From: Spirulina major PCC 6313
GTDB lineage: Bacteria > Cyanobacteriota > Cyanobacteriia > Cyanobacteriales > Spirulinaceae
Assembly: GCF_001890765.1 (NCBI RefSeq)
Contig: NZ_KV878783.1
Location: 2,756,771 to 2,820,770, forward strand
DNA: 64,000 nucleotides
Direction of reading: 5' to 3'
Shown here: in pieces, positions 921 through 18,697 of the stretch
How the letters are laid out: the number at the start of each line of letters is the position of its first letter
Numbering within the stretch: position 1 is the first letter of the stretch
Made by a program: the position numbers and the translations under genes
The notes under the pieces: model-generated
Database searches by the model: none
Seen by the model: the letters and a program-made list of their open reading frames with translations, nothing else
Told to the model about the DNA's origin: nothing

Positions 921-2231
921 TTAGGTGTCTTTGAGGCCTTCGGTGGGCAATTGAATGATCACCGTTGTGCCTTGGCCGGGTTCGGAGTGAATCTGAAGAT
1001 CGCCGTGGTGGTCTTCAACGATGATTTGATAGCTGGTGGCGAGGCCGAGGCCTTGGCCGCTGCCGATGGGTTTGGTGGTGAAGAAGGGTTCAAAAATATG
1101 CGATCGCGCCGCTGCATCCATCCCCACGCCATTATCCTGAACGGTGATGGTAAAGCCGGTCTCTGTGGCATCAATACCCAGGGTCAAGGTGGGTGCGGTC
1201 TGATCCGTTTTGGCACGGAGTGCATCGATGGCATTGGTGATCAAACTTAAGATCACCTGGTTAAACTTACGGGCATAGCAGACTAGGTTGGGGATGTGCT
1301 TGTAATGCTTGACCACTTGAATCGGTGGGTCTGCCTGGAGACGCTGGTTCACTAACATCAGGGTTGTGTCAATGGCTTCGGCAATGTTGATCGTTTTGAC
1401 ATCGGATTCATCGAGGTGGGCAAAAATGCGCAGGGCGAGGATCAGCGATCGCAGCCGCTCCGTTCCCGACCGCATCGATTGCAGCACCTGGGGTAAATCG
1501 GCTTGGATAAACTCCAGATCCATCTCCTCTAAAAAGTCCTGCAAACTAGGCGACGGATTCGGTAACTCCGCTTGATAACGAGCGATCGCCTCAATCAACA
1601 GCCCCGCATAATCCGCCACCGGTTCAAGATTGCCCGCAATGAACCCCACCGGATTATTCACCTCATGGGCCAACCCCGCCACCAACTGCGCCAACCCCGC
1701 CAACTTCTCCTGCTGGATCACCTGGGCTTGGGTCTTTTGTAACTCCAGTAACGTGTTCTCCAACTGTCCATTGGTGGTTTTCAGAGTCTCATTTTGCGTC
1801 GCCAACTGCTGATGCAACTGCGCCAACTGTAATTGATGATTGACCCGCGCCAACACCTCTTCCAGCAGAAACGGCTTCGTAATGTAGTCTTCCCCCCCAC
1901 TCTGAAACGCCTTCACCTTATCCTCTGCCTCATTGAGCGCACTCAAAAAAATAATTGGCACTGCCGCCGTTTGGGGATCAGCCTTCAACTGCTGACAGAC
2001 CTGATAGCCAGTCATATCCGGCAAATTAATATCCAACAAAATCAGATCCGGCAGGAGAGATTTCACCGCCAGCAACGCCATCTTGCCATTAATCGCCTTG
2101 CGCACCCCATACCCTTGACCCTGCAACATATCAGACAAGAGCCGGAGATTAGCCGGGGTATCATCCACAATCAGTAAATCAAGGGTAGGGGATGGATTAG
2201 AGGGTGAATCCAGGGTTATAGGGGTCATCAT
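921..2231 (-). CDS. Response regulator fused to histidine kinase (REC-coiled coil-HisKA/HATPase)
   Basis: The N-terminal receiver domain reads [14 protein letters not shown] and has the phospho-acceptor Asp in [14 protein letters not shown] and the Lys of the ITKPF segment. A glutamine-rich coiled coil follows, then an H-box ([12 protein letters not shown]) and an ATPase with N-box ([11 protein letters not shown]), G1 (DNGVGMD) and G2 (GQGLGLATS) motifs. The protein is soluble with no membrane segment. It lies about 100 bp downstream of the ethylene-receptor-like hybrid kinase on the same strand, so it is a likely co-transcribed relay partner. Two ATGs (2231 and 2228) are plausible starts; the frame continues upstream to a TTG at 2246 with no clear ribosome binding site. 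The signal it receives is unknown, and phosphotransfer from the upstream kinase is inference. Confidence 0.85.
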
Positions 2232-2331
2232 AGGAGGGACTATCAAAATTCTGGAGCGTCAATGGCGGGATAGATTTAAAGCATTAATCAAACGAGTTTT
2301 CAATTAACTCCCTTGTACAGAATACCAAGGC

Positions 2332-5300
2332 TTACATCGGGGAACTCTCGTCTACATCAGAGGAGATGGGGAGTCCTAGCACCGGTTCGATCAACTCCAC
2401 GATCGCATCAAAGCGAAATTGCACGGCTAATTCCGTCAGATAGAACATTAAGCTGGCACATTCCGGGGGGATCGCCTCAACAAGCCCAAAAATAGCCGTG
2501 TCATTCCCCTGGAGCGCAGCTTGATACACCTGATCAAGCCACTCGTAGGGCATTTGATCTAAGGTGGCGCGATTAAACTCGATGCTTGAGTGGGTCGCGT
2601 CATTGTCGAGGGATGATTCGAGGGGTTCAGGATCAGCGTATAGATACTCCACCTGGAGATGGGTGCGAATCACTTCAAAGAGTTCGGTTTCTTGGAAGGG
2701 TTTGCGGATAAAGTCATCACAGCCCGCCGTGAGGACATCTTGGCGATCTTCTTCAAAGGCACTGGCCGTTAACGCGATGATCACGATGTCTCGGCCCTGT
2801 TGTTGAGCGCGGCGGCGGATCGTTTGGGTGGCGACATAGCCATCCATGACGGGCATGCGCATATCCATCAGAATTAAGTCCGGTTTCCAGGTTTCCCACT
2901 GGGCGATCGCTTCTTCACCATTGGTGGCTTCGCAGAGTTCAAACCCCAGACGGCTGAGGAGTTGATTGAGCAGGAGCCGATTGTTGGGTTTGTCTTCGGC
3001 GATCAAAATCCGGATTTTGGTTTGACCTGGAACAAGGCAGGCCACGGGACGGGCTTCGAGTTCAGACCGGGCCAGCACGGTGTTGGCTTCGACAGGGGTA
3101 ACGGCGATCGTAAAGCTAAAGGTGGCTCCACAGTTCGGTTGGCTATCGACGGTGATCGTGCCGCCCATCAGGTTGATGAATTTTTGACTGATCGGGAGTC
3201 CTAGGCCAGTGCCTTCTTGGGATTTTAACCCCACCGTGGTTTGTCCGAAGGCGGTGAAGAGTTGGTCATGTTCGCGTGGATCAATGCCGGGGCCGGTATC
3301 GGTGACGCGGAAGGTGATATGGCCGGCATCGTTCGATCTGACGTGCAGGGTGACTTGGCCCGCAGTGGTGAATTTGACGGCATTGTTGAGCAGGTTAATT
3401 AAAACCTGGCGCAATTTTCCTTCGTCGGCACAGATGTATTGGGGGACATGGGGCGATCGCTCCAAACTCAGAATCAAGCCTTTATCCCGCACCTTTAACT
3501 GAAACATTTGATAGAGGCCCTTCAACAGTTGATGAAGGTCAAAATTATGTTCCATTAGTACCGTGCGGCCCGCCTCAATCTTGGACATTTCCAGCACATC
3601 ATTAATCAGGGTTAACAGATGTTCCCCCGACTGATTGATAATGTCGAGATATTGTTTTTGCTCCGCCATCAGCGTCGCCTCGCGGGTCAGGAGTTGGGTA
3701 AAGCCCAAAATCGCATTCATCGGGGTGCGGAGTTCGTGGCTCATGCTGGCGAGAAATTCACTTTTGGCCCGGTTAGCAGCTTCGGCGGCCTCTTTGGCGC
3801 GGGCCAGTTCGCGGGCTTGCTGCTGACTTTGGGAAAAGAGTTCCGCCTGTTGGACGGCGACCCCTAACTGCGTACCAATTTGGGTGAGAATTTTAATTTC
3901 CGATTCATTCCATTGGTGGGGCCCGCTGTTGTGGTAGGCGCAAAGAAGTCCCCAGATTTTTTTGCTAGCAAAGAGGGGGACGATCAGGTAACTGCGGGCT
4001 TGGAGTTGTTCGAGCAGTTCAATGTAGCAGTCGGTAAATCCGGCTTGGTAGATGTCGGTGACACTGTGATAGGCTACGCCACGCCGATAGATGTCGCCTT
4101 CGGTGTCTTTGAGGTAAGTATCTTCGACTAAAGCGCGGTCGGAGCGTCCGATGCAATCGACGTTTTCGGTGGCTTTCCGGGTGATCGGTGGATTGAGTTC
4201 TACGTCCACCACCGGCTGCCATCCGGCGGCGAGGGATTCGGCAACGAGTACGCCGCTCCAGTCGGGGTTAAAGCGATAGATCAAGACGCGATCGCACTCC
4301 AGCGCATGGCGCAGTTCTGCCGTCGTATCCCGGAAAATCGTTTCTAGATCCAAGGTTTGGCGCATTCGAGAAACGACGCGGGCGATCGCCTGCTCCCGTT
4401 GGGCGGTTTTGCGGAGTTGCAGTTCAATCTGTTTGCGCTCGGTAATGTCATGGATAATGCCCACGAGGCTCGCTTCGTGGTTCTGGCCTTGAAACGCAAT
4501 CCGCTTTGTGGTGATCGTGCGCATCCGGTTTTGAGCATCGGTGAGGGTCGTTTCCTCTTCTTGTTCTTCCCCGGTTTCAAACACGAGTTCATCCTGATAC
4601 CAGATTGCATTGGCTTCGAGGGTTGGCAACAGATCGTAGTTAGTTTTCCCTAACAGTTCAGTCGGCGATCGCCCCACCCAATCACAAAATGCCGTATTCA
4701 CCATTGTTAAACGATGGTGACGATCTTTCACAAACATCGGCTCGGTGATGGCATTCAACACCCGCTCTAAAAACTCTTGGCTGGCTTTGAGGGCGGATTC
4801 TGCGATTGTCTTTTGAGCAATTTCCGTCGCTAAGGTTTCATTAATCATCACGAGTTCATTCGTCCGATTTTCCACCCGTACCTCTAGCTCCGCTTTATTT
4901 TGGGCTAAATCTATTAACGCCCGTTGACGCTGCAACTCTGTTGATGCCCGCGCCGCAAAAATTGTTAAAACTCCTTGGGATTGTTCGTCGAGAATTAACG
5001 GTTGACGATGGAGCAAACATAAATTTCCCACCACTTCCTGGTCACTATTAAGCAGTGGCATCCCCACATAGCCTTCGGCATTCATCGGCGCTAAGAGCGG
5101 ATCATTGGGAAACAAAGCTTGGACTTTTTCGGGCACTGCACAAATTTCCTTTGTTTCAAAGGTGATGGCACAGGGCGTGTCGGCGATCGCATACACAATA
5201 TTTTCACTCAAACACCCATGGGCCCAAATTGCCAAGGTTTGCAACTGGGGTTCAGTGTCAGTTTGTTGCAATTCCGACACCAACACATAATCCACCTGGA

Positions 5301-5826
5301 GTGCCGTAGCCAAATTTTCCACCAACGCATTGAAAAAATCCTGCCCTGTGGAGGATGCTGTCCCTTCTACCAGGCGACGGAAAAACCCCTCCATCCGCTG
5401 ACGCTCCTGGATTTCGTCCTGGAGAGCAGCATTGATGCGTTCGAGTTCTTCCGGTGTTCGCAGGGCCAAAAATTGGGGGATGAGTTGCCACAATTCAAAG
5501 GCGGTGTAACAGGAAATCAAGGCCGTCAGCAACCGTTCAAACCCTGAGATCCAATAATTTGGAAACCATAAGGTCCAAATATCAAGGGTGTGACCAATGC
5601 CACACAGGATAATAAATGCGCCAAACAGTACCAAGACACGGGTTAACTTCAACTCCGGACGTTGGGCCACAAAATAGATCAGCATTGCCGGAATCGAAAA
5701 ATAAGCGATCGCAATCAACGCATCACTAATTACATGAAGACTCACCAATGGTTTTTGCCACAGGTAACAAGAGCCATGGGGCATATAAGTTGATAGCATT
5801 AATGTCCGTAATAAGAAATCCCACAT
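2332..5826 (-). CDS. etr1: Ethylene-receptor-type hybrid sensor kinase with GAF, PAS and cyanobacteriochrome-like GAF domains
   Basis: Residue numbers here count from an upstream in-frame start at 5895; the preferred ATG is residue 24. Three membrane helices (about 50-142) carry every residue known to matter for Cu(I)/ethylene binding in plant ETR1, at the right spacing: Asp58, Tyr65, Ile95, Cys98 and His102. Then follow GAF (about 168-325), PAS (about 375-490) and a GAF (about 505-690) with the bilin-site pattern [14 protein letters not shown] (Cys623). A second Cys (Cys581, VDCIGRS) could be a dual-Cys partner. The kinase core has H-box His720 (SMSHELRTP), N-box around 830-840, G1 (DTGPGID) and G2 (GTGLGL). 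A receiver follows with Asp1011 (LILMDMRMP), then a helical tail. The order resembles Synechocystis SynEtr1/UirS (Slr1212), which responds to ethylene and UV/green light, but here an extra GAF and a C-terminal receiver are present. Confidence 0.88.
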
Positions 5827-5895
5827 AAAACTTGAATAATAATGAATTCTTTGTACCGAGCAATCCAAGCAAAGTTGAGGAAACTCAACCCTCAA

Positions 5896-6479
5896 AAACC
5901 CAGAGCTTGAGCTATTCCTGACCCTGATTGCATCGAAGATGGCGATCGCTGACCTGTTTCAACCCTTCTCAATATTCCATATTGCTTTTTCTGGCCCATG
6001 CAACAGCATTAGCCACGGACTCCTAAGCATCAAACAATGAATAACTTCGACTTGGAAGGCCCTACCGTGTTTCCGAATTCAGGTGTACTTTTGCGACACA
6101 ATAATGTTTGTTTCTCAAAGTGGTATTGCCAAAATTCCAGCAGTGGTGTGAGGAAATAGCACACGATCACAGTTTAACCCCTTACATCCAGCGATCAAAC
6201 GGCTCAATGTGGTAAGAATTTCAATGAAAAGCCAGTAAGTCAAGCGGAACTGATGGAGAGTCGCAAACAAATTGTGGTTGACGACATTGAATGGTGATTG
6301 AATTTACAGGGGGGGCTGACCCTTCAGAAACAATTGAGCAATCCTATCTTGAGCAGAGATTGATGACTCACGCTTCTATTTTAATGGTTTCAACCCGAAG
6401 ATGAGCAGCCGGACGGGAAGCGATCGCCCGTTAAGCCCCACGTTTGGTAAGGATGCATCCTAGTTATGTCGCCGTTATG
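5896..6479. other. Intergenic region, no gene recognised
   Basis: This stretch upstream of the hybrid kinase is AT-richer than its neighbours and probably holds that gene's promoter. Around 6225-6293 a short frame reads like the tail of a decayed coding sequence (ends VVDDIEW), but no family can be named. I see no RNA gene. Confidence 0.3.
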
Positions 6480-6606
6480 TCGCCCTCACCCTAAATCCCT
6501 CTCCCAAGCTGGGAGAGGCGATGCACTGAGTCTGCCGAAGTGGACTTTGAATCTGGCTCCCCTGCTTCCTTTTTGAGAGAAGGGGCTGGGGGATGAGGGC
6601 GATCGC
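6480..6606. repeat. Dispersed intergenic repeat (CCCTCACCC...CTCTCCC type)
   Basis: The block begins GCCCTCACCCTAAATCCCTC and ends in GGGCTGGGGGATGAGGGC, so its ends are roughly complementary and could fold as a long imperfect hairpin. Related blocks occur near 25851-25932, 37130-37165, 49835-50075 and 62525-62590. It is a short, non-coding, multi-copy element of the kind common between cyanobacterial genes. The small frames that cross it are not genes. Confidence 0.6.
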
Positions 6607-6732
6607 TCGGTTGAATCTGCACCATTGAGATGTATAGCACTAGCCAGAGCGGTTAGGACCTTCAGAGACTCTAGAACCAGGGGATTAAGCCCCTTGCCTG
6701 TCCTAACGCACTTGTTGATTGCGATACCCCTT

Positions 6733-7110
6733 GTTGACACTCCCCGCGCTGAAGCGACAGGGATTCTTGGTTCATCGACCGGACTTAACTCAGCAGGATT
6801 GCTCCAACCCCGCCAGAGGTCTAATCTCCCCAAGCGGATAACGTCCCCTGTGCCCCACGGTAGTTAGTCCAAGGCGCAGCATACAAACCCGCTTCACTAT
6901 CGACTCAGCCTGATGCCGATCCCAGACTAACCCGTTCACATGCAAGTCTTCCGAGGCGACCAAATCGTTAGATTGGATGACGCAGTGGGCAATCCGCCCA
7001 CTCATTACGCTGCCTGCTTACCCTTAAATGCTTCCAGGCCTGTCGGTTTTTAGCCTTGTGATCGTTCCTGGACGTTTGAAATCCAAGATAGCAGCCTAAC
7101 ACGACTAAGC
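6733..7110 (-). pseudogene. Relic IS200/IS605-type TnpB with its right-end hairpin
   Basis: On the minus strand several frames carry recognisable TnpB pieces in the correct order. They are KNRQAWKHLRVSRQRNEWA (before 7005), then NDLVASEDLHVNGLV (the RuvC-II region; the usual YED reads SED), then a tail resembling the family's C-terminal linker. The distal end at 6733-6775 has the typical hairpin (CCCGCGCTGAAGCGACAGGG on the plus strand) followed by GTCAA when read on the minus strand, as at the right end of the intact-length element at 33-34 kb. Multiple frame breaks show old decay. The N-terminal half is not recognisable. Confidence 0.65.
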
Positions 7111-7351
7111 CCAAGGAGGGCGACTAACGTCGCTCGTGTCGTCTTTCATCCCCGCAATCAATTGACGGGCTTTCAGGCTCCCGCACTATTTTCGTAATCT
7201 TTGATACTGCAAGCATGGTCTGATCAACCCCCAACAGGCAAAAACATCAACGGAATGATCGCCGCTCGTGAAAAGATTCCGCAATCCGCCAATCACCCCG
7301 AATTCGTTGCTATAGAATGATTGGGATTTAAACACCTATGCTCTACGAACT
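6867..7351. other. Intergenic region upstream of carB
   Basis: Apart from the TnpB relic reaching to about 7110, the remaining 240 bases hold no gene I can support. The carB promoter should lie in the last 150 bases, which are AT-richer; I cannot assign a defined box. Confidence 0.3.
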
Positions 7352-10300
7352 ATGCCTCGTCGCAGTGACCTAAAAAAAATTCTGCTACTGGGGGCTGGCC
7401 CCATCGTGATCGGGCAAGCCTGTGAATTTGACTACTCCGGAACCCAAGCCTGTAAAGCCCTCCGCCAAGAAGGCTACGAGGTGATTTTAGTCAATTCCAA
7501 CCCCGCCACGATTATGACCGATCCCGAAACAGCGGATCGCACCTACATCGAACCCGTCACCCCGGAGATTGTCGCCAAGGTGATCGAAAAAGAACGCCCC
7601 GACGCGCTGCTCCCGACCATGGGGGGTCAAACGGCCCTCAATGTGGCCGTGACCTTGGCAAAAAATGGGGTTCTAGATCAGTATGGCGTGGAGTTGATCG
7701 GGGCGAAGTTGGAGGCGATCGAAAAAGCAGAAGATCGTCAACTCTTTAAAGAAGCCATGGCCAAAATTGGCGTGCCGGTCTGCCCGTCGGGGATTGTTAG
7801 CAATATGGATGAAGCTCGCACCATTGCAGCGGAAATTGGCAGCTATCCGCTGATTATTCGCCCGGCGTTCACCTTGGGGGGAACGGGCGGCGGCATCGCC
7901 TATAACCAGGAAGAATACGAAGAGATGGCCCAAGTTGGGATCGATGCCTCGCCTGTATCTCAGATTCTTGTGGAACAGTCGCTGCTGGGCTGGAAGGAGT
8001 ACGAGCTTGAGGTGATGCGGGATCTGGCGGATAACGTGGTGATCATCTGTAGTATTGAGAACTTTGACCCGATGGGGGTACATACGGGGGATTCGATCAC
8101 CGTGGCTCCGGCCCAAACCTTGACGGATAAGGAATATCAACGGCTGCGGGATGCGTCGCTGAAGATTATCCGAGAAATTGGGGTGGAAACGGGGGGATCG
8201 AATATTCAGTTTTCGGTGAATCCGTTAACGGGGGATTTCATTGTGATTGAGATGAACCCCAGGGTGTCGCGTTCTTCGGCGTTGGCCTCGAAGGCCACCG
8301 GGTTCCCGATCGCAAAATTCGCGGCGAAACTGGCCGTCGGCTACACCCTCAATGAAATTTCCAACGACATCACCAAGCAAACCCCCGCGTCCTTTGAGCC
8401 GACAATTGACTATGTGGTGACGAAGATTCCCCGCTTTACCTTTGAGAAGTTTCCCGGTTCGGAGCCGGTGCTGACGACCCAAATGAAGTCGGTTGGGGAA
8501 GCGATGGCGATCGGGCGGACGTTGCAGGAGTCGTTCCAGAAGGCGTTGCGATCGCTCGAAACCGGCCGCTATGGGTTTGGCTGCGATCGCAGTGAAGCCC
8601 TGCCCACCCTCTCCCAGGTGGCGGCTAACTTGCGCACCCCCAACCCCGATCGCATCTTTAGCATTTACCACGCGATGAAGCTGGGGATGTCCGTGGAAGA
8701 AATTCACGATCTTACTGCCATTGATGTTTGGTTCTTAGATAAGTTGGCGGATCTGTTGGTGACAGAACGGCTCTTGAAGCAAACGCCCCTGGCCGAAATT
8801 ACAGCGGTGCAGATGCGCCAAATTAAACAAAAGGGGTTTAGCGATCGCCAAATCGCCTTCGCCACCAAAACCACCGAAGACGAAGTGCGCACCCATCGCA
8901 AAGCCCTTAACATCGTGCCCGTCTACAAAATGGTGGACACCTGCGCGGCGGAGTTTGAAGCCTTCACCCCCTACTACTATTCCACCTACGAACCCGACGA
9001 AAGCGAAGTCACCCCCTCGGACAAACCGAAGGTGATGATTCTCGGCGGCGGGCCCAACCGCATCGGTCAAGGGATCGAGTTTGACTATTGCTGTTGTCAT
9101 GCGTCGTTCTCCCTCAGTGAGGCGGGCTTTGAGACGATCATGGTCAATTCCAACCCGGAAACGGTGTCCACGGACTACGACACGAGCGATCGCCTCTATT
9201 TTGAACCCCTCACCAAAGAGGATGTCCTCAACATTATCGAAGCCGAACAACCGGCCGGGGTGATTATTCAATTCGGTGGTCAAACCCCCCTGAAATTGGC
9301 TGTACCTCTGCAACAGTATCTCAACGATACCCCCGACTGCCCGACAAAAATCTGGGGAACCTCCCCCGATGCGATCGACACCGCCGAAGACCGCGAACGG
9401 TTTGAAAAAATCCTCCAAGAATTGGAGATTCTCCAGCCCCCCAACGGCCTCGCCCGCAGCTACGAGGAAGCCTTGGTGATTGCCAATCGCGTTACCTATC
9501 CCGTGGTGGTACGTCCTTCCTACGTTCTCGGCGGTCGGGCGATGGAGATTGTTTATTCTGATCCTGAACTGGAACGGTACATGACCTTTGCGGTGCAGGT
9601 GGAACCGGATCACCCGATTTTGATCGATAAATTCCTCGAAAATGCGGTGGAAGTGGATGTGGATGCGATCGCTGACAAAGACGGCAATGTCACCATCGGC
9701 GGCATCATGGAACATATCGAACAAGCCGGGATTCACTCCGGCGACTCCGCCTGTTCCCTCCCCTACACCACCCTCACCGATGCCGCCCTTGAGACGATCC
9801 GCACCTGGACGGTGAAACTCGCCAAAGCCCTCAACGTCATCGGCTTGATGAATATTCAATTTGCCGTCCAAGGCAACACTGTCTACATCCTCGAAGCCAA
9901 CCCCCGCGCCTCCCGCACCGTGCCCTTCGTCTCGAAAGCGATCGGCGTGCCCTTGGCGAAAATGGCCTCGCTGGTGATGTCCGGGAAAACCTTAGCCGAA
10001 TTGAATTTCACCCAGGAAATCATCCCTAAACATGTGGCCGTTAAAGAAGCGGTCTTACCCTTTAAAAAATTCCCCGGCTCCGATACCCTCCTGGGACCCG
10101 AAATGCGTTCTACTGGGGAGGTGATGGGCCTTGATACTCAATTCGGCACGGCCTACGCCAAGGCGGAACTGGGAGCCGGTGAGGTCTTGCCATTGACGGG
10201 GACGGTGTTTGTGTCAACGAGCGATCGCGACAAGCCCCTCGTTGTCCCTGTGGTGAAGGACTTTATCGAGTTGGGCTTTACGGTGATCGCCACGGTGGGA

Positions 10301-10926: not shown

Positions 10927-11220
10927 CCAGAACTCCAGTTTCAGGTTGTTTGATGATTACCCTATTCTCGAAGATATCTCTAGGAGAAAAATATTAAATT
11001 ATGCACTCCTGACCAAAAATTTATCATTGTTGATGAATATTACGACCCATGCTCAACCTTACTCAATCTTTCGCAAATTCCCGTAAGGTAGTAGATGAAA
11101 ACTCAATGTAGAGACAATTTCCATCGGATCATCAAATTCAGAATAGCGGCATTGAACAGCAGAGCATAGTATTGGAAAATACAAATTTTTCTCCCCTGCG
11201 CCATTGGGTTTTCGCGCCAT

Positions 11221-11270
11221 AACCCTAAAACCCCGTCGGGTTAATTCCGACAGGGTTCTAGGGTTATTTT
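11221..11270. terminator. Strong hairpin terminator, probably bidirectional
   Basis: An inverted repeat with arms AACCCTAAAACCCCGTCGG and CCGACAGGGTTCTAGGGTT surrounds TTAATT and is followed by TATTTT on the plus strand. It lies immediately downstream of the minus-strand tRNA-Arg and is well placed to end that transcript. Nothing else is recognised between 10927 and 11220. Confidence 0.75.
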
Positions 11271-11281
11271 GAATCGATTAA

Positions 11282-11355
11282 CGGGCGAGAAGGGATTCGA
11301 ACCCCTGACACCGTGGTCCGTAGCCACGTGCTCTAGTCCACTGAGCTACACGCCC
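11282..11355 (-). tRNA. tRNA-Arg (ACG)
   Basis: The minus strand folds as a cloverleaf: acceptor GGGCGTG with CTCGCCC (one T-T mismatch), D-arm GCTC/GAGC, anticodon stem CGTGG/CCACG with loop CTACGGA, and T-arm AGGGG-TTCGAAT-CCCTT. Anticodon ACG reads CGN arginine codons after A-to-I editing. The 3' CCA is not encoded and the discriminator base is G. Confidence 0.95.
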
Positions 11356-11421
11356 TTGGGTTGCTCGCATTTTGTGCGACAGTTATTAACTGTAGCATAG
11401 GCAAAATCCCAACGCAACCCA

Positions 11422-11916
11422 ATGACTGAAAATACCTCCTCCCTCACCCATCTCAACGCGACCGGCGCAGCGCAAATGGTGGACGTATCCGATAAACCCG
11501 TGACCAAACGCACAGCGATCGCAGCGGGTCAAATTCGCATGACCGCCAACACCCTCACCGCCATCCTGGCCGGCAACAGCCCCAAAGGTGACGTGATCGC
11601 CACGGCCAAACTCGCCGGTATCATGGCCGCCAAACAAACCGCAAACCTGATCCCCCTCTGTCATCCCCTCCCCTTAAGCCAAATCACCGTCGAACTCACC
11701 CCCGATCACGACCTACCGGGCTACCAAATTCAGGCCACCGTCACCACCAAAGGCGAAACCGGCGTGGAAATGGAAGCGCTCACCGCCGTCTCCATCGCCG
11801 CCCTCACCCTCTACGACATGGCCAAAGCTCTAGAAAAATCGATGCAAATCGAGCAGATTCGGTTAATCTCTAAAACCGGAGGCAAATCCGGCGACTACGC
11901 CGCCCACCCCGCCTAA
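11422..11916 (+). CDS. moaC: Cyclic pyranopterin monophosphate synthase
   Basis: Second step of molybdenum-cofactor synthesis: converts the 3',8-cyclo-dihydro-GTP product of MoaA into cyclic pyranopterin monophosphate. The full 164-residue sequence shows the family hallmarks [31 protein letters not shown] (catalytic-site His/Cys region) and [20 protein letters not shown]-type C-terminal helices. It lies just downstream of tRNA-Arg on the opposite strand, with gatC 53 bases after it. The start at 11422 gives the usual length. Confidence 0.97.
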
Positions 11917-14101: not shown

Positions 14102-17100
14102 ATGGTGGAAAAATCGGGTCAATCCTTCAGAAAAAGCAGTAAGTATGATAAAAATAGCGCACTAGATTTTCATTCCTACTTAAAATCGATTTCCAATGAC
14201 GAAAACTATAAAGAATCACAAGAAATTTATACGTCTATCCTAGTCAGAGATGATCAACACACGCAGGCTAATAGCCTAGCGCAGCACTCGTTACGGTTAA
14301 AATTACGAATAAAAAGAGTCAATTTTGAAGCAAAGCAAGATAGTTGTTATCAAGAAATATCATCACCACAAAAGAAGGTTGAGCATTGGGATGTATTGGC
14401 AGGACTACGACACTATGCCAAAAATCATGTGTTGTTAGTTGGTAAGCCTGGATCAGGAAAATCTACGGCACTCCGACAGTTGCTTTGGGAAGAAGCACAT
14501 AAGGCACGCCAAGATTCAAGCAATCGAATTCCTGTGTTAGTGCGATTACGTCGTTGTACTGAAACCATTGAAAAACTCATTCAAGATGTTCTATTGGGTC
14601 ATGGAATAGATCTCAAAATTGACCAAATCAGAAAATCAATTAAAGATGAATTTTTGATATTGCTAGATGGTCTGAATGAATTACCCGAACACTTGAGAAT
14701 AGAAGTCGCTAATTTTCGCGATCGCTACCCGGAGACTCCAATAATCGTCTCAACCCGAAATTTGAGCCTAGGTGGCACACTGGGTATCGAAAAAGCCTGG
14801 TTGACTGACAAAAGATTGTGCCCAAACCTCAAAAACCCTCACTATGCCTGGATTTCAGCGTTTTATAATCGGAGCCCCCTTATCGTGAACCATCTTGGCA
14901 CTGGATTGGAATTGGCAGAAGCCTTGCCAGTACTCAGTTATGGCTCTCTACAGAGGTGATCGCTGAGATGCCTATGGGACAAGAGTTTTCAAAGTTTTGT
15001 CAGTCAATCAGCGAAAAAGCTCTCGAAATGCTTCCCCTAACAGCATCCCAAACACAAGAGTTTATTCAGAGATATCTAGGAGAAGAAGGCGATCGTCTCT
15101 TTCAGCAGCTTCAGGGTGAAAGGCTACAGAAATTTGCTGAAACGCCGCTGTTATTGTGGATGCTGTGTCGGGTATTCGCTCAGAATGGTAAGGTTCCTAA
15201 CAATCTAGGACTCGCATTTCGGGAGTTTGCCCAACTCCATGACCAAAAACTTCAAGAGGATGCCCCAACGGATTCTAAAGATGAGTGGCATAGGTTGTTG
15301 CGTCGTCTAGCTTTTGTGATGATGCAGGGAAAAACGTTAATTGATCCTCAGTTATCAATCCCGAAAGAGGAAGTAGAAGACTGTTTAACGAAATATTTAC
15401 AGCAAATAGGTAGATCTAATCCCAGAGAGGATGCTGAACGCGGGCTTAAGGATTTACTGAAATACCACTTAATCCAATCGGTCATTCAACCCAATCTGGA
15501 AGAACATATTGAGTTTCGCCACCAACTCATTCAGGAATATTACGCGGCAGAACATCTGCTTAGACTGTTGCCGAATATTACAGATGAGCAACTAACGCAA
15601 AATTACCTTAACTACCTGAAGTGGACAGAGCCTATCGCGTTGATGTTGGCTCTCATCGGGGATGAAAAACAGGCGTTACAAGTTATAAAACTGGCATTAG
15701 ATGTAGATTTGTGGTTGGGTGCAAGGTTAGCAGGTGAGGTGAAGGAAGAGTTTCAGCAGAAATCCCTCAATATTGTCAACCAAACAATAGCAGACAATAA
15801 TTTTCCTGATTGGATGACAGTTGCCATACTTGGGCAAATTCAAACTGAGCAATCGAAACAATGTCTTGTTAAATATTTGAATCACCAAGAAATTAAGATT
15901 GTCCGCAAAGCTTGCCGATTTATAGGCGAGACTAGTGATTTTAAAGTAATAGATATCATTTTTTCAAGGCTTGAGGACGTTGAAAAAAATTTCCTGAATC
16001 ACAAATTTTTTGGAGGATCTGATCAAATCGGTGAGCTATGGGCAATGTTGACTGAATCACTTTCATATCTTCAGCCTCAAAAAGTCATTTATTTTTTACG
16101 AGAAAGACTAATAGAGAAGAAAATAAAAAATTGGTATTTTTTGCATCAATTTACGAAAGCACCTCAGTTGCTCATGAGACTTGACGGTGAATCGGTATTG
16201 CTGATGTTGCTTGAAGACTTAAAAAGATTGCAAAATGACAGCAAAAAGCCTATGCCACCAGATTTTTTCAATAAAAGTCCTGATAGTTTTATTAGATCGC
16301 TCATAATGTCTTCACCAGACAGAATAAAAAAAGAGTATCAAAATGCTTTCGACAATGATAAATCTCTAATATTCAATCTTATAAGTTGTTCATCTAATTA
16401 TGAATCAGTAGTAGATGCTCTTATTCAAGCCTTAGAAAATGAAGAAAGCATAAATTCAAAAAAACAAATCATTAAGCTGATTAGCAATTCACACCATGAT
16501 CAAATCAATAAGATCTTGATTAGACAGTTATCTCATCCTAATTTCAAGGTTAAAGCCGAGGCTTGTCAGCAACTTATCAATCGCAATCAGAAAAATCCTG
16601 ATGTTATAAACGACCTCATGCAATTACTTGATCATGAGAACTGGGAGGTTGCATGGTCAGCAGCATTTGTTTTGGGTAGCTTAGGCCATGAACATTCTAT
16701 TTGTAAGCTAACTGAAGCAATGCAAACAGAAGCTAAGAAATATAAATACACAGTATTACATCGAATGACAGCAAAGGCTTTAAGTAACCTTAATTCGCAA
16801 CTTACTGCGCCTATTTTAATTAAATTCATTGATGAAAATCATCAAAAAAATAATGAATGTTGTACTGGTATTGTTTGGGAGTCTGCTTTTTCTTTGAGCA
16901 AGCTTGGTTGTCCAGAAGCAATTCCTGTTCTTTTGAAGGCTGCTCAATCAGGTTTGTCTAAGGAATGCAAGGAAGCTATTCAAGGTCTTGCCAGACTTGG
17001 CGAGGTAGAACACTTACAAGCAATTTTGAAATCAAAATCAGTTGGATGGCAAACGGCTGCTATTGAGCTTGTTGATCTTGAAGAAAATAACGCCTTTGAT

Positions 17101-17583
17101 GATTTAATTTCTCCTTTACAACAGGCTTTGATTGAGCCTGATACTGCATCATCTAATAAGATAATTGAAATGCTATCTAAACTTGCAGGATCAGAAACTA
17201 TTGATTGGCTCATTGATGCCTTAAAAAATCCTTATCAGCATACCCACGATCAATTTTTTGCTAATAGAGTTGCATTCGTGTTGTCCAGAGCAAATCTAGA
17301 TATTTTACAAAAACGCTTAACAGATTTAAAGCAGTTAATCACCAACCATCACATTGAACAGCTTTTCTGGCTGATTCCCACTATCCAAAACCGTTGTCAG
17401 TTCTATAACTACGAGATTTACCAAGCCCATCTAATAGCGCAGCAAGCCGATCGCCAAGCAAGCCAGAAGAGCGATCGCCCCTCCTCAAACCCAGTTACCT
17501 ATGATCTAAGAAACGCCACAATTGGCAATTTTGCCCATGAAGTCCACGGCAACCAAATCACCAAAGCGGAGGAACGCTCATGA
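14102..17583 (+). pseudogene. NACHT-HEAT STAND NTPase (NLR-like), interrupted by a 215-bp MITE
   Basis: The first fragment (14102-14959) has an N-terminal region of about 110 residues, then a NACHT domain with Walker A GKPGSGKST (about 115-122) and Walker B FLILLDGLNELP (about 184-195). It then runs off frame into inserted DNA. The second fragment (14956-17583) holds the rest: winged-helix/sensor region (LQKFAETPLLLWMLCRVF, EFRHQLIQEYYAAEHLL), about 500 residues of HEAT-like alpha repeats, and a C-terminal motif YDLRNATIGNFAHEVHGNQI. Deleting 14797-15011 and one copy of the 9-bp duplication gives one continuous frame of about 1085 codons that reads GIEKALEMLPLTASQ across the join. STAND NTPases of this type act as oligomerising sensors, and several are antiphage. 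The two halves overlap by GTGA, so split expression is conceivable. ATGA overlap couples the gene to the antitoxin downstream. Composition is AT-rich and HIP1-poor, suggesting transfer. Confidence 0.85.
14797..15011. mobile_element. MITE with 17-bp terminal inverted repeats and 9-bp target duplication
   Basis: The left end is CTGGTTGACTGACAAAA and the right end, read on the other strand, is CTGATTGACTGACAAAA (one mismatch). The flanks carry the direct repeat CGAAAAAGC at 14788-14796 and 15012-15020. The 215-bp body has no recognisable transposase, so it must have been moved by an enzyme encoded elsewhere. The same terminus sequence occurs near 25804-25966. Insertion introduces a stop and a frameshift in the STAND gene. 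Confidence 0.9.
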
Positions 17584-17849
17584 ATATTCCCATTCCCGAA
17601 GACCTAGAACACCGGCTTCAGCCCCATCTTCCCCAACTCTACCAACGTGCCCTTGAAGCGATCGCCCTCGAAGCCTATACAAACTGCTTAATGAGCGCGG
17701 CTGAAGTCCAAGCCTTGCTTCATCTGCCTTCCCATCTGGCCACCGATGCCTTTCTCAAACAGCATGGAGCCATCCGATCTCTTACCCTAGAAGACATTCA
17801 GCAAGACATTCAGACCCTAGATCGAGTGCTTCATGATCGTTCTTTGTGA
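17580..17849 (+). CDS. UPF0175-like antitoxin of a PIN toxin-antitoxin pair
   Basis: An 89-residue protein with the pattern EAIALEAYTNCLMSAAEVQ followed by FLKQHGA and an acidic C-terminal helix (LTLEDIQQDIQTLDRVL). It resembles the UPF0175 family found upstream of DUF3368 PIN proteins in cyanobacteria. Its start overlaps the STAND stop (ATGA) and its end overlaps the PIN gene by 17 bases, so the three genes are translationally coupled. By analogy it should bind and neutralise the PIN toxin and repress the promoter; this is inference. Confidence 0.72.
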   Translation: MNIPIPEDLEHRLQPHLPQLYQRALEAIALEAYTNCLMSAAEVQALLHLPSHLATDAFLKQHGAIRSLTLEDIQQDIQTLDRVLHDRSL

Positions 17850-18270
17850 CACTTCTCCGATTTGCTATCTTATTCTCATTGGTCAAATTAACTTGCTCCC
17901 GCAACTCTTTCAAGCCATCACGATCCCTACTGCGGTTCGTGATGAGCTTTTGAACGAAGATGCTGGCCAATCAATTTATACGTGGATTCAGCATCCTCCC
18001 CCATGGCTGCATACTCAAACCGTTCCTCAACCGCTGCTCTCGTTGCCCGATCATCTCGGTGCTGGAGAGCGGGAAGCTATCTCTCTCGCCGTCTCACTGC
18101 AAGCCGATTTAGTGATCATTGACGATCTGGATGCTCGAACTGCCGCGCAAAAACTAAACCTTTCCATCATTGGTACACTTGGAATTCTGTACCGCGCCGG
18201 AGTTAGAGAACTCATTGACTTTCCAGCGGCGATCGCTCAACTTCAAAAAACCTCATTTCACGTTTCCTAA
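17833..18270 (+). CDS. PIN-domain RNase toxin (DUF3368 type)
   Basis: A 145-residue PIN fold. The first acidic residue lies in IVLCDTSPICYL, then comes a conserved AVRDELL segment, and the C-terminal catalytic acids lie in ADLVIIDDLDARTAAQKL. The GTLGILYRAG signature is typical of DUF3368. PIN toxins cut RNA in a Mg-dependent way and are held in check by the partner antitoxin directly upstream. Overlap with the antitoxin start is typical of TA pairs. Its position inside the STAND operon, between the two genes that share the amyloid-like motif, is unusual. Confidence 0.8.
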   Translation: MIVLCDTSPICYLILIGQINLLPQLFQAITIPTAVRDELLNEDAGQSIYTWIQHPPPWLHTQTVPQPLLSLPDHLGAGEREAISLAVSLQADLVIIDDLDARTAAQKLNLSIIGTLGILYRAGVRELIDFPAAIAQLQKTSFHVS

Positions 18271-18307
18271 ACTCTCGTTCAACAACTTCTTGAGGATTAT
18301 TACCACC

Positions 18308-18697
18308 ATGGCCAACGCCCCTAAATTTGATCTTCGTGGTGCAAACATTGGCAACCTTGCCGATACGGTGCAAGGTGATCAGATTGCTCACATTCAGAAT
18401 CAGTCTGAGCAGAATTTTGAAATATTGTTGACAGACTACAAGCAATTTATTGATCAACTTCAGCAGAAATACCCCACATTGACGGATCTAGCCACCGTTT
18501 CTCAGATGATTGAAGTTGAAACACAGCTCATCAAAGCACAAGATCCACAACGGTGTCAAAACTTCCTGAACCTCAAACGACTTGTGAATGGTGGACAAAA
18601 AGCAGGACTTAAAATTGGCGAACACTTTGCGGAAAATAATGTTTGGGCAAAAGGGGCGATCGCATTTCTCGAAGGTGTGAGTGAAGATGTAACGTAA
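18308..18697 (+). CDS. Small helical protein with N-terminal amyloid-signalling-like motif
   Basis: A 129-residue protein whose N-terminus (residues 6-27) carries FDLRGANIGNLADTVQGDQI. This is the same motif, in the same register, as the STAND C-terminus (YDLRNATIGNFAHEVHGNQI); 12 of 20 positions are identical. Similar short G-N-x-Q motifs pair bacterial NLR-like receptors with effector proteins encoded next door (the BASS families described for cyanobacteria). The remaining 100 residues are predicted by eye as alpha-helical, ending in a short hydrophobic segment (WAKGAIAFLEGV). No catalytic motif is visible. It is likely the effector or adaptor that the STAND protein would nucleate; this is inference. 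The frame is open upstream to 18170, but ATG 18308 is the natural start, 37 bases after the PIN gene. Confidence 0.72.
   Translation: MANAPKFDLRGANIGNLADTVQGDQIAHIQNQSEQNFEILLTDYKQFIDQLQQKYPTLTDLATVSQMIEVETQLIKAQDPQRCQNFLNLKRLVNGGQKAGLKIGEHFAENNVWAKGAIAFLEGVSEDVT

Follow-up and report, generated by a model that had tools for sequence, protein, structure and literature searches.

Matched terminal tags in STAND-type receptor genes and a small helical protein family of cyanobacteria: candidate two-component pairs in mirror orientation to known amyloid signalling systems

Bacterial NLR-type receptors that share an amyloid motif with an adjacently encoded effector, known as BASS or Bell-NLR pairs, were reportedly brought to light by Dyrka and colleagues in 2020. 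The literature on such pairs (PMC7889193, PMC8086366, PMC12261475, PMC9815663), like all literature used below, is represented here by titles, abstracts and partial texts. According to these, the motif is located at the N-terminus of the NLR and at the C-terminus of the effector, the Bell domain contains a hydrophobic helix (PMC7889193), and in fungi as well as in multicellular bacteria the two proteins share amyloid motifs by which the effector is templated (PMC7889193, PMC9815663). Effector-associated domains (EADs), Death-like and TRADD-N adaptors likewise connect the effectors of multicellular prokaryotes to STAND or other sensors (PMC7159879, PMC8195603). In this study we analysed a stretch of 64,000 nucleotides from the cyanobacterium Spirulina major PCC 6313 (contig NZ_KV878783.1, positions 2,756,771 to 2,820,770), hereafter the window, in which the gene of a STAND receptor and that of a small protein of 129 amino acids carry a common short terminal motif, or tag. 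Shared tags of this kind, 19–25 residues long and rich in G, N, V and I, recur in related loci, which are numbered below (L005 and so on). The interpretation we favour, with some reserve, is that the STAND protein would be the receptor and the small protein the partner, most likely the effector, of a two-component cell-suicide or anti-phage pair in which the tag serves as the homotypic contact. At the level of the family, the interpretation as a pair is supported.

The small protein, a predicted effector or adaptor according to its open reading frame (ORF) and structure model, is encoded at 18308–18697 on the forward strand. Its tag, DLRGANIGNLADTVQGDQI, occupies residues 8–26 of 129 (18329–18385, forward) ahead of the helical domain common to the family (18407–18691, forward; a match to profile A2, introduced below). 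The receptor-side tag, DLRNATIGNFAHEVHGNQI, is found on the same strand at 17503–17559, seven residues short of the protein end of ORF 14956–17583. The two are identical at 12 of 19 residues in a single ungapped register; a first-pass annotation of the window had the identities and the register right and the length, given as 20 residues, wrong. Their local alignment score is 68, compared with a mean of 20.7 and a maximum of 49 in 50,000 shufflings of the small-protein N-terminus (Gumbel p ~2e-7). The receptor tail is the best match among all frames of at least 60 codons in the window, the runner-up scoring 39, and in a search of the 5.05-Mb genome it ranks second behind the small protein itself, with an E value that is weak alone (0.24). 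The tag match in the window is far above chance.

A one-genome-per-species search for relatives of the small protein returned seven loci, which belong to cyanobacterial genomes and metagenome-assembled genomes (MAGs). In Leptolyngbya PCC 6406 (L005) an intact trypsin-NACHT-HEAT receptor has DLRGATIANLAHEVHGNQI near its end, with a short tail after it, and the small protein carries the tag DLRGANIGNLAETVQGDQI. The small protein of Phormidesmis priestleyi ULC007 (L006) has a helical domain that is 80% identical and a different tag, QNFHGSVSGGVAGNVEGDMI, and its receptor bears QNFYAPVSAVAGNVEGNLI close to the end; a third tag, NFPNAQKVQVFEQIDTYIE, is present in P. priestleyi BC1401 (L011) and matches HFPNATEVKIFENVDRYHE on the receptor of that locus. 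L010 has a tag of the same type as L011, but no neighbour matches it. L007, L008 and L009 encode fusions of the helical domain with a HEAT-type protein, the two parts being separated by another G/N-containing segment. L005 also encodes a second, diverged small protein (11160–11579), which lies 0.8 kb downstream of the first amid toxin-antitoxin-like genes and has a different N-terminal tag, NIQNFNANNAAVNLGGTIEGDQI. The L005 receptor (5551–9678) has in addition an internal GDVVAGDKVGRDKIG-type repeat between its trypsin and NACHT parts, resembling the tag of L121.

The matching was then examined in a sample of 386 genomes of the phylum together with the named genomes. Profile A1, made from eight small proteins with their tags included, has matches in 31 of the 386 genomes, and profile A2, made from the helical domain only (20 rows, a large share of them from loci whose match was already known), has 120 matches in 59 genomes, all 59 belonging to the window's own class. 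We regarded a small protein as separate when its frame had at most 280 amino acids, and a tag as matched at a score of at least 40, both limits being our own choice. Sixty-six A2 matches have frames of this length; subtraction of six short fragments left 60, five small proteins of the named genomes (two of L005 and one each of L006, L010 and L011) brought the number to 65, of which 19 had first come from the tag-including A1, and removal of nine similar ones resulted in 56. The residues ahead of each helical domain were compared with the termini of the proteins encoded on the same strand up to 3 kb away. Thirty of the 56 non-redundant small proteins have a neighbour with a matching terminal tag, compared with 2.98 on average and 12 at most when the neighbourhoods were re-assigned in 100,000 permutations; the mean own score is 50.5 versus 26.9 (z ~20), and residue shuffling gives 0.56 matching loci. 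Among the 40 loci fetched via the helical domain alone (L098–L137), 19 match, or 18 without L126, whose match reflects TPR similarity; in two further members of the 30, L005b and L135, the match is to the N-terminus of a tagged protein next to them. Chance, or a low-complexity tail common in cyanobacteria and unrelated to pairing, is therefore extremely improbable as an explanation. The tags are alike in G/N-rich composition and 4.4% of the off-diagonal comparisons reach 40, yet permutation of loci keeps this composition and gives only 3 of 56, which already contradicts a common unrelated tail, the outcome that the first-pass annotation had named as fatal to its proposal.

A search of the 386 genomes with the receptor-tail pattern CxFYNYE[IVM] gave 7 matches in 7 genomes against 5 for the reversed control pattern, so that the tail pattern alone proves nothing and the ORFs decide. 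Six matches are real receptors: four have matched small proteins (the window, L044, L065 and L114), while that of L070 is fused to the helical domain and that of L139 to a TIR domain. Five of the seven (the window, L044, L065, L114 and L070) were known beforehand, and the match in L138 is due to chance, with no such ORF.

The usual arrangement places one tag at the C-terminus of the upstream gene and the other at the N-terminus of the small protein (21 of the 30 matched loci); the other layouts are four downstream N-termini, three downstream C-termini and two upstream N-termini. The partners themselves are of several kinds. Pfam identifies NACHT and HEAT in those of L005, L111 and L114, HEAT and TIR in that of L098 (N-terminus cut by the contig), HEAT in L137, TPR in L071, NB-ARC and TPR in L106 and L120, where the tag is near the N-terminus, and DUF6232 in L108, L118 and L133, with L072 just below the cut-off; the partners of L042, L104, L107 and L116 have no family match in Pfam. 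L006, L011, L044, L057, L058 and L065 were called NACHT-HEAT from the P-loop and sequence resemblance, L103 (no Pfam match), L075, L079, L099 and L134 were called DUF6232-type from size, position and hydropathy, and the L043 partner was judged from its sequence to be a leucine-rich-repeat (LRR) protein with a Roc-like GTPase region. In all nine DUF6232-type partners (L072, L075, L079, L099, L103, L108, L118, L133, L134) a stretch of 19 residues is strongly hydrophobic. These membrane proteins, located upstream of tagged helical proteins and matching them with a C-terminal tag, form a sensor type without a STAND ATPase, and the literature searched, with subscription papers mostly outside it, makes no mention of DUF6232. 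TIR is a cell-death domain. It follows the HEAT repeats in L139 and L098, and its place at the same end there supports the view that the C-terminal end of the receptor can carry the output.

In some loci (L061, L063, L066–L068, L073, L074) whole chains of adjacent genes share NSQFGGGxINAxxVNAGxIGGDI-type tags at N- or C-termini; they include pentapeptide-like proteins, P-loop proteins and a CHAT-AAA_35 protein (L063) and are possible multi-protein cascades. A phage or plasmid origin was also considered and set aside: no relative was confirmed in viral contigs (83 stretches matched a pattern) and none was found in phage records. Two plasmids, from Nostoc and Acaryochloris, carry a relative, in each case where the annotation gives a COR-domain protein.

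The matching is specific to the pair. The small proteins of the window, L006 and L011 have domains 61–80% identical, and their tags score 59–68 with their own receptor and 18–28 with the two foreign ones. For seven loci of one helical subtype the own-receptor scores are 59–74 and the cross scores to receptors of another tag type mostly 14–31, with three at 40–43; the highest cross scores, 48–69, occur between loci with the window's tag type (the window, L005 and L043). Specificity within a genome was checked in four chosen genomes, that of L061/L074 being left out. In all three with two unlike matched pairs the own scores (58–93) exceed the cross scores (21–38), and in the fourth (L099, L079) the pairs are near-duplicates and indistinguishable. 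The small-protein-side tags of 29 matched loci fall into nine single-linkage clusters, one with 16 loci. Judged by their sequences, the tags vary between loci yet match within a pair, and this matching is recurrent and locus-specific.

The age of this identity can be read from codon usage. Of the 564 identical residues in 38 matched loci, 282 are encoded by different codons, where 322 would be expected under independence, and in the window the figure is 9 of 14 with 9.0 expected. Synonymous sites between the paired tag copies are near saturation. Codon differences so close to independence point to tag identity being held by protein-level selection and not by recent copying, and they rule out that the tag was recently duplicated or gene-converted. 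Between the window and L005 the small-protein tag has non-synonymous and synonymous rates (dN, dS) of 0.021 and 0.572, and is more constrained than the whole small ORF (dN 0.10, dS 0.65; dN/dS ~0.15), itself under purifying selection. The same figures bear on the idea that a fused receptor-tag-domain gene was split by a toxin-antitoxin cassette, which duplicated the tag and left an evolutionary residue of no lasting function. Fused forms do exist (L007, L009, L045 and others), and the toxin-antitoxin-like genes of the window are located exactly at the split. Such a residue is nevertheless very improbable and already contradicted, by residues kept while synonymous sites approach saturation, by matching that recurs with unlike tags and unlike receptors, and by the dN/dS of the small ORF. 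Thus the proposal of the first-pass annotation, a receptor and a partner linked by a shared short motif, is upheld by a link that is locus-specific, recurrent (30 of 56 versus 2.98) and not a recent duplication.

With regard to composition, 42 tag copies contain 13% G, 14% N, 11% V, 9% I and 2% L, in contrast to 12–14% L in the protein bodies, and are also poor in A, E and K relative to the helical domains and receptor bodies. An amyloid step between the putative tag partners would be plausible. Alternatively, the tags may form a stoichiometric non-amyloid docking pair in which short β-solenoid or pentapeptide-like rungs stack tail to tail and simply hold the small protein on the receptor, for which it would act as adaptor or regulator. 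Short regular repeats in some tags (L121 GDNIAGDKIAGDKIGRDKI, L118 VSGEVQGNVSGNVEGNV) would suit docking, as would the pentapeptide-type repeats seen by eye in the same chain of several helical-domain proteins. The composition and length of the tags, however, resemble amyloid signalling motifs as the published descriptions present them. Moreover, the helical domain is also found fused to NACHT-HEAT, LRR-type and other proteins, and 18 of 19 long fused proteins retain by eye a G/N-rich segment (L054 is without it), where a tether would be useless. We consider docking rather unlikely. An Asn in the receptor facing an Asp in the effector, suggested as a brake on self-assembly by the window, L006, L044 and L065, was rejected over 21 pairs, with N-to-D in 7, D-to-N in 9 and a net charge difference that is not significant.

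The small protein is predicted by AlphaFold to consist of five helices between residues 21 and 122, with a mean confidence score (pLDDT) of 69, and residues 1–28, the tag region, have pLDDT <50 and no confident structure. With a model of this modest confidence, no convincing family match was found in Pfam, NCBIfam, PADLOC, PHROGs or PDB. Against solved folds the best Foldseek E value is 1.6 and the best sequence-profile E value 0.11, the weak structural matches are uninformative, and the best VIA-align Z of 4.8 for the helical domain is not above the helical-bundle background. The all-helical partner of no recognised family announced in the first-pass annotation is supported within these searches. 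TRADD-N or Death-like identity was rejected for lack of Pfam support and because the model is all-helical; TRADD-N is described, in the parts of the texts used, as an RRM-like alpha/beta fold (PMC7159879, PMC8195603). The first helices of the domain are joined to one of several variant ends, which indicates that the family is modular at both ends.

Between the receptor and the small protein of the window there are two toxin-antitoxin-type genes (17580–18270). The first encodes a UPF0175 antitoxin-like protein (17580–17849, forward; PF03683, E 6.5e-9), its start overlapping the receptor stop, and the second, which overlaps the first, a PIN/DUF3368-type toxin-like protein (17833–18270, forward) with weak matches below the curated cut-off (PF20698, E 0.0023; PF11848, E 0.011). 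The partner described earlier as encoded next door is thus nearby and on the same strand, but with these overlooked genes in between. Toxin-antitoxin-type genes also follow the receptor in L005 (9675–9965, a UPF0175 gene with no toxin gene directly following), L011 (9575–9958), L044, L065 and L139 (900–1163), so that different families (UPF0175, PIN, ParE/RelE) recur after the receptor and before the small protein where one exists; no such family was found in the two intervening ORFs of L006. From this neighbourhood arises a further reading, that the small protein regulates the receptor or the genes in between, be it as inhibitor, antitoxin-like partner or scaffold. It draws on the presence of such genes in the window, in L011, L044 and L065 and, with the antitoxin family only, in L005, on a helical domain without enzymatic or membrane signature, and on partners, those of DUF6232 type, that are themselves the membrane proteins. 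We hold it to be unlikely, for the intervening families vary from locus to locus, and in L139 it is TIR that sits at the end of the receptor used elsewhere by the helical domain. Because the families vary and the gap is just 62–170 (approximate lengths) in 14 of the 21 pairs with an upstream C-terminal tag, the toxin-antitoxin genes do not appear intrinsic to the pair.

The receptor gene of the window is not one intact reading frame, and its two ORFs are 14102–14959 and 14956–17583, both forward. The first is the N-terminal STAND fragment, with P-loop and NACHT start (PF05729, E 5e-8, above the cut-off) before it reads into an insertion; the second holds the remaining NACHT, the HEAT repeats (HEAT_2, E 9e-30) and the shared motif at its end. 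Within the NACHT domain lies an element of 215 bp (14797–15011) with near-perfect terminal inverted repeats CTGRTTGACTGACAAAA, flanked by a 9-bp target-site duplication CGAAAAAGC at 14788–14796 and 15012–15020. It sits between the codons for GIEK and ALEMLPL and shifts the frame, and its removal restores an empty site with a single frame open over 1085 codons. The genome holds three other copies that are 100% identical, six at 71–75% and one partial match of 64 bp; because of these identical and diverged copies the element is regarded as a miniature inverted-repeat transposable element (MITE) that inserted recently. One of the identical copies is located ~13 kb upstream of the window. As expected from so recent a hit, the receptor tag is intact. 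The pair in the window is thus probably inactive, its receptor split by the recent MITE and both tags intact. What had been annotated as the STAND protein does belong to a NACHT-HEAT receptor, but its ORF is the C-terminal part of a split gene, and the working pair assumed at this locus keeps both tags but has a disrupted receptor. In the MAG locus L007 the NACHT-HEAT gene with fused helical domain is likewise in two frames (1235–1699 and 1696–4656).

Several observations weigh against the interpretation as a receptor-effector pair with a self-assembling tag. The receptor of the window is itself disrupted. In the phylum sample, 26 of 56 small proteins are without a matched neighbour within 3 kb, some stretches ending at contig ends, and only 20 score best with their own neighbourhood among all 56, loci of the same tag type competing. 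When the window is compared with L005, constraint looks weaker on the receptor tag (dN 0.116, dS 0.194 over 19 codons) than on the tag of the small protein. Eight tag fragments gave no Pfam match at E 10, and the RHIM core [IV]Q[IVLC]G occurs in one and the PP core NxGxQxGxN in none of the 42 tag copies; RHIM or PP membership was accordingly rejected. No membrane helix is predicted in the helical domain of the window protein (best 19-residue hydropathy 0.6), so that killing by membrane insertion is unsupported and a membrane-inserting effector was dropped for this protein; seven of 62 relatives of the domain reach 1.6 on the same simple scale. Finally, since the DUF6232-type partner is the membrane-spanning one in several pairs, the roles of effector and adaptor could be reversed.

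In comparison with BASS as described in the available texts, the likeness lies in an NLR-type NTPase and a small helical protein encoded side by side, in a short, family-variable, G/N-rich motif that is diverse between loci and common to the NLR-type gene and its neighbour (here above chance), and in cyanobacteria being among the hosts. The differences are a mirror topology, with the receptor C-terminus and the partner N-terminus tagged in the window and in most matched loci (the NB-ARC-TPR partners of L106 and L120 being among the exceptions), a helical domain without a clear hydrophobic membrane helix on a simple scale, and partners that include LRR-type, DUF6232-type and TPR proteins, with toxin-antitoxin genes sometimes intervening. 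Because the topology is reversed and the hydrophobic helix missing, we do not file the pair as a Bell/BASS member, known here by description, though it may work like one. The label BASS/PP/RHIM-like given in the first-pass annotation therefore holds for the shared motif and fails for the BASS topology (PMC7889193) and for the RHIM and PP cores. Fungal NLR/HeLo signalosomes (HET-S, sigma, PP) and metazoan RHIM have the same proposed logic, in which receptor clustering templates a neighbour-encoded effector, but differ in the motif, as the Pfam and core searches above indicate. EADs, Death-like and TRADD-N adaptors are also homotypic and duplicated in adjacent genes (PMC7159879, PMC8195603), but they are domains, unlike a tag of 19–25 residues; in the available text the word amyloid is absent from PMC7159879 and is used a single time in PMC8195603, with no description of such tags in either. 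The bacterial NACHT and Avs anti-phage STAND proteins have the same order of NACHT ATPase and repeat-type sensor, with weak PADLOC matches to Avs2 in L006 (E 1e-6) and L005 (E 0.0025), but the output module here is C-terminal or in a separate tagged protein. In the titles, abstracts and partial texts searched, with subscription papers mostly outside the search, neither a defence activity of this receptor clade nor mirror-topology tag pairs were found reported.

STAND NTPases oligomerise on activation. A NACHT-HEAT receptor of this family may sense its trigger through the HEAT array and oligomerise by its ATPase, and the clustered C-terminal tags would nucleate a cross-beta, amyloid-like stack. 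This stack would recruit and template the N-terminal tags of the small protein, and the crowded helical domains would switch on the response. Whether one helical output family has been wired in this way to many kinds of sensor, by many mutually orthogonal, self-templating tags of 20–30 residues, is in our judgement evenly balanced; such a ‘barcoded’ layer of cyanobacterial signalling, large and as yet undescribed, would span NACHT-HEAT, HEAT-TIR, NB-ARC-TPR, LRR-type, DUF6232-type membrane and TPR sensors, with at least nine tag sequence classes in our sample. If it exists, several pairs could coexist in one cell without cross-talk. The receptor-effector interpretation would extend the idea of amyloid-type NLR signalling to a mirror topology and to sensors other than NLRs. 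The matched tags form a natural panel from which recognition specificity may be read in sequence and tested with peptides, and the apparently new helical family comes with intact loci for experiments, such as that of Leptolyngbya PCC 6406, unlike the broken locus of the window.

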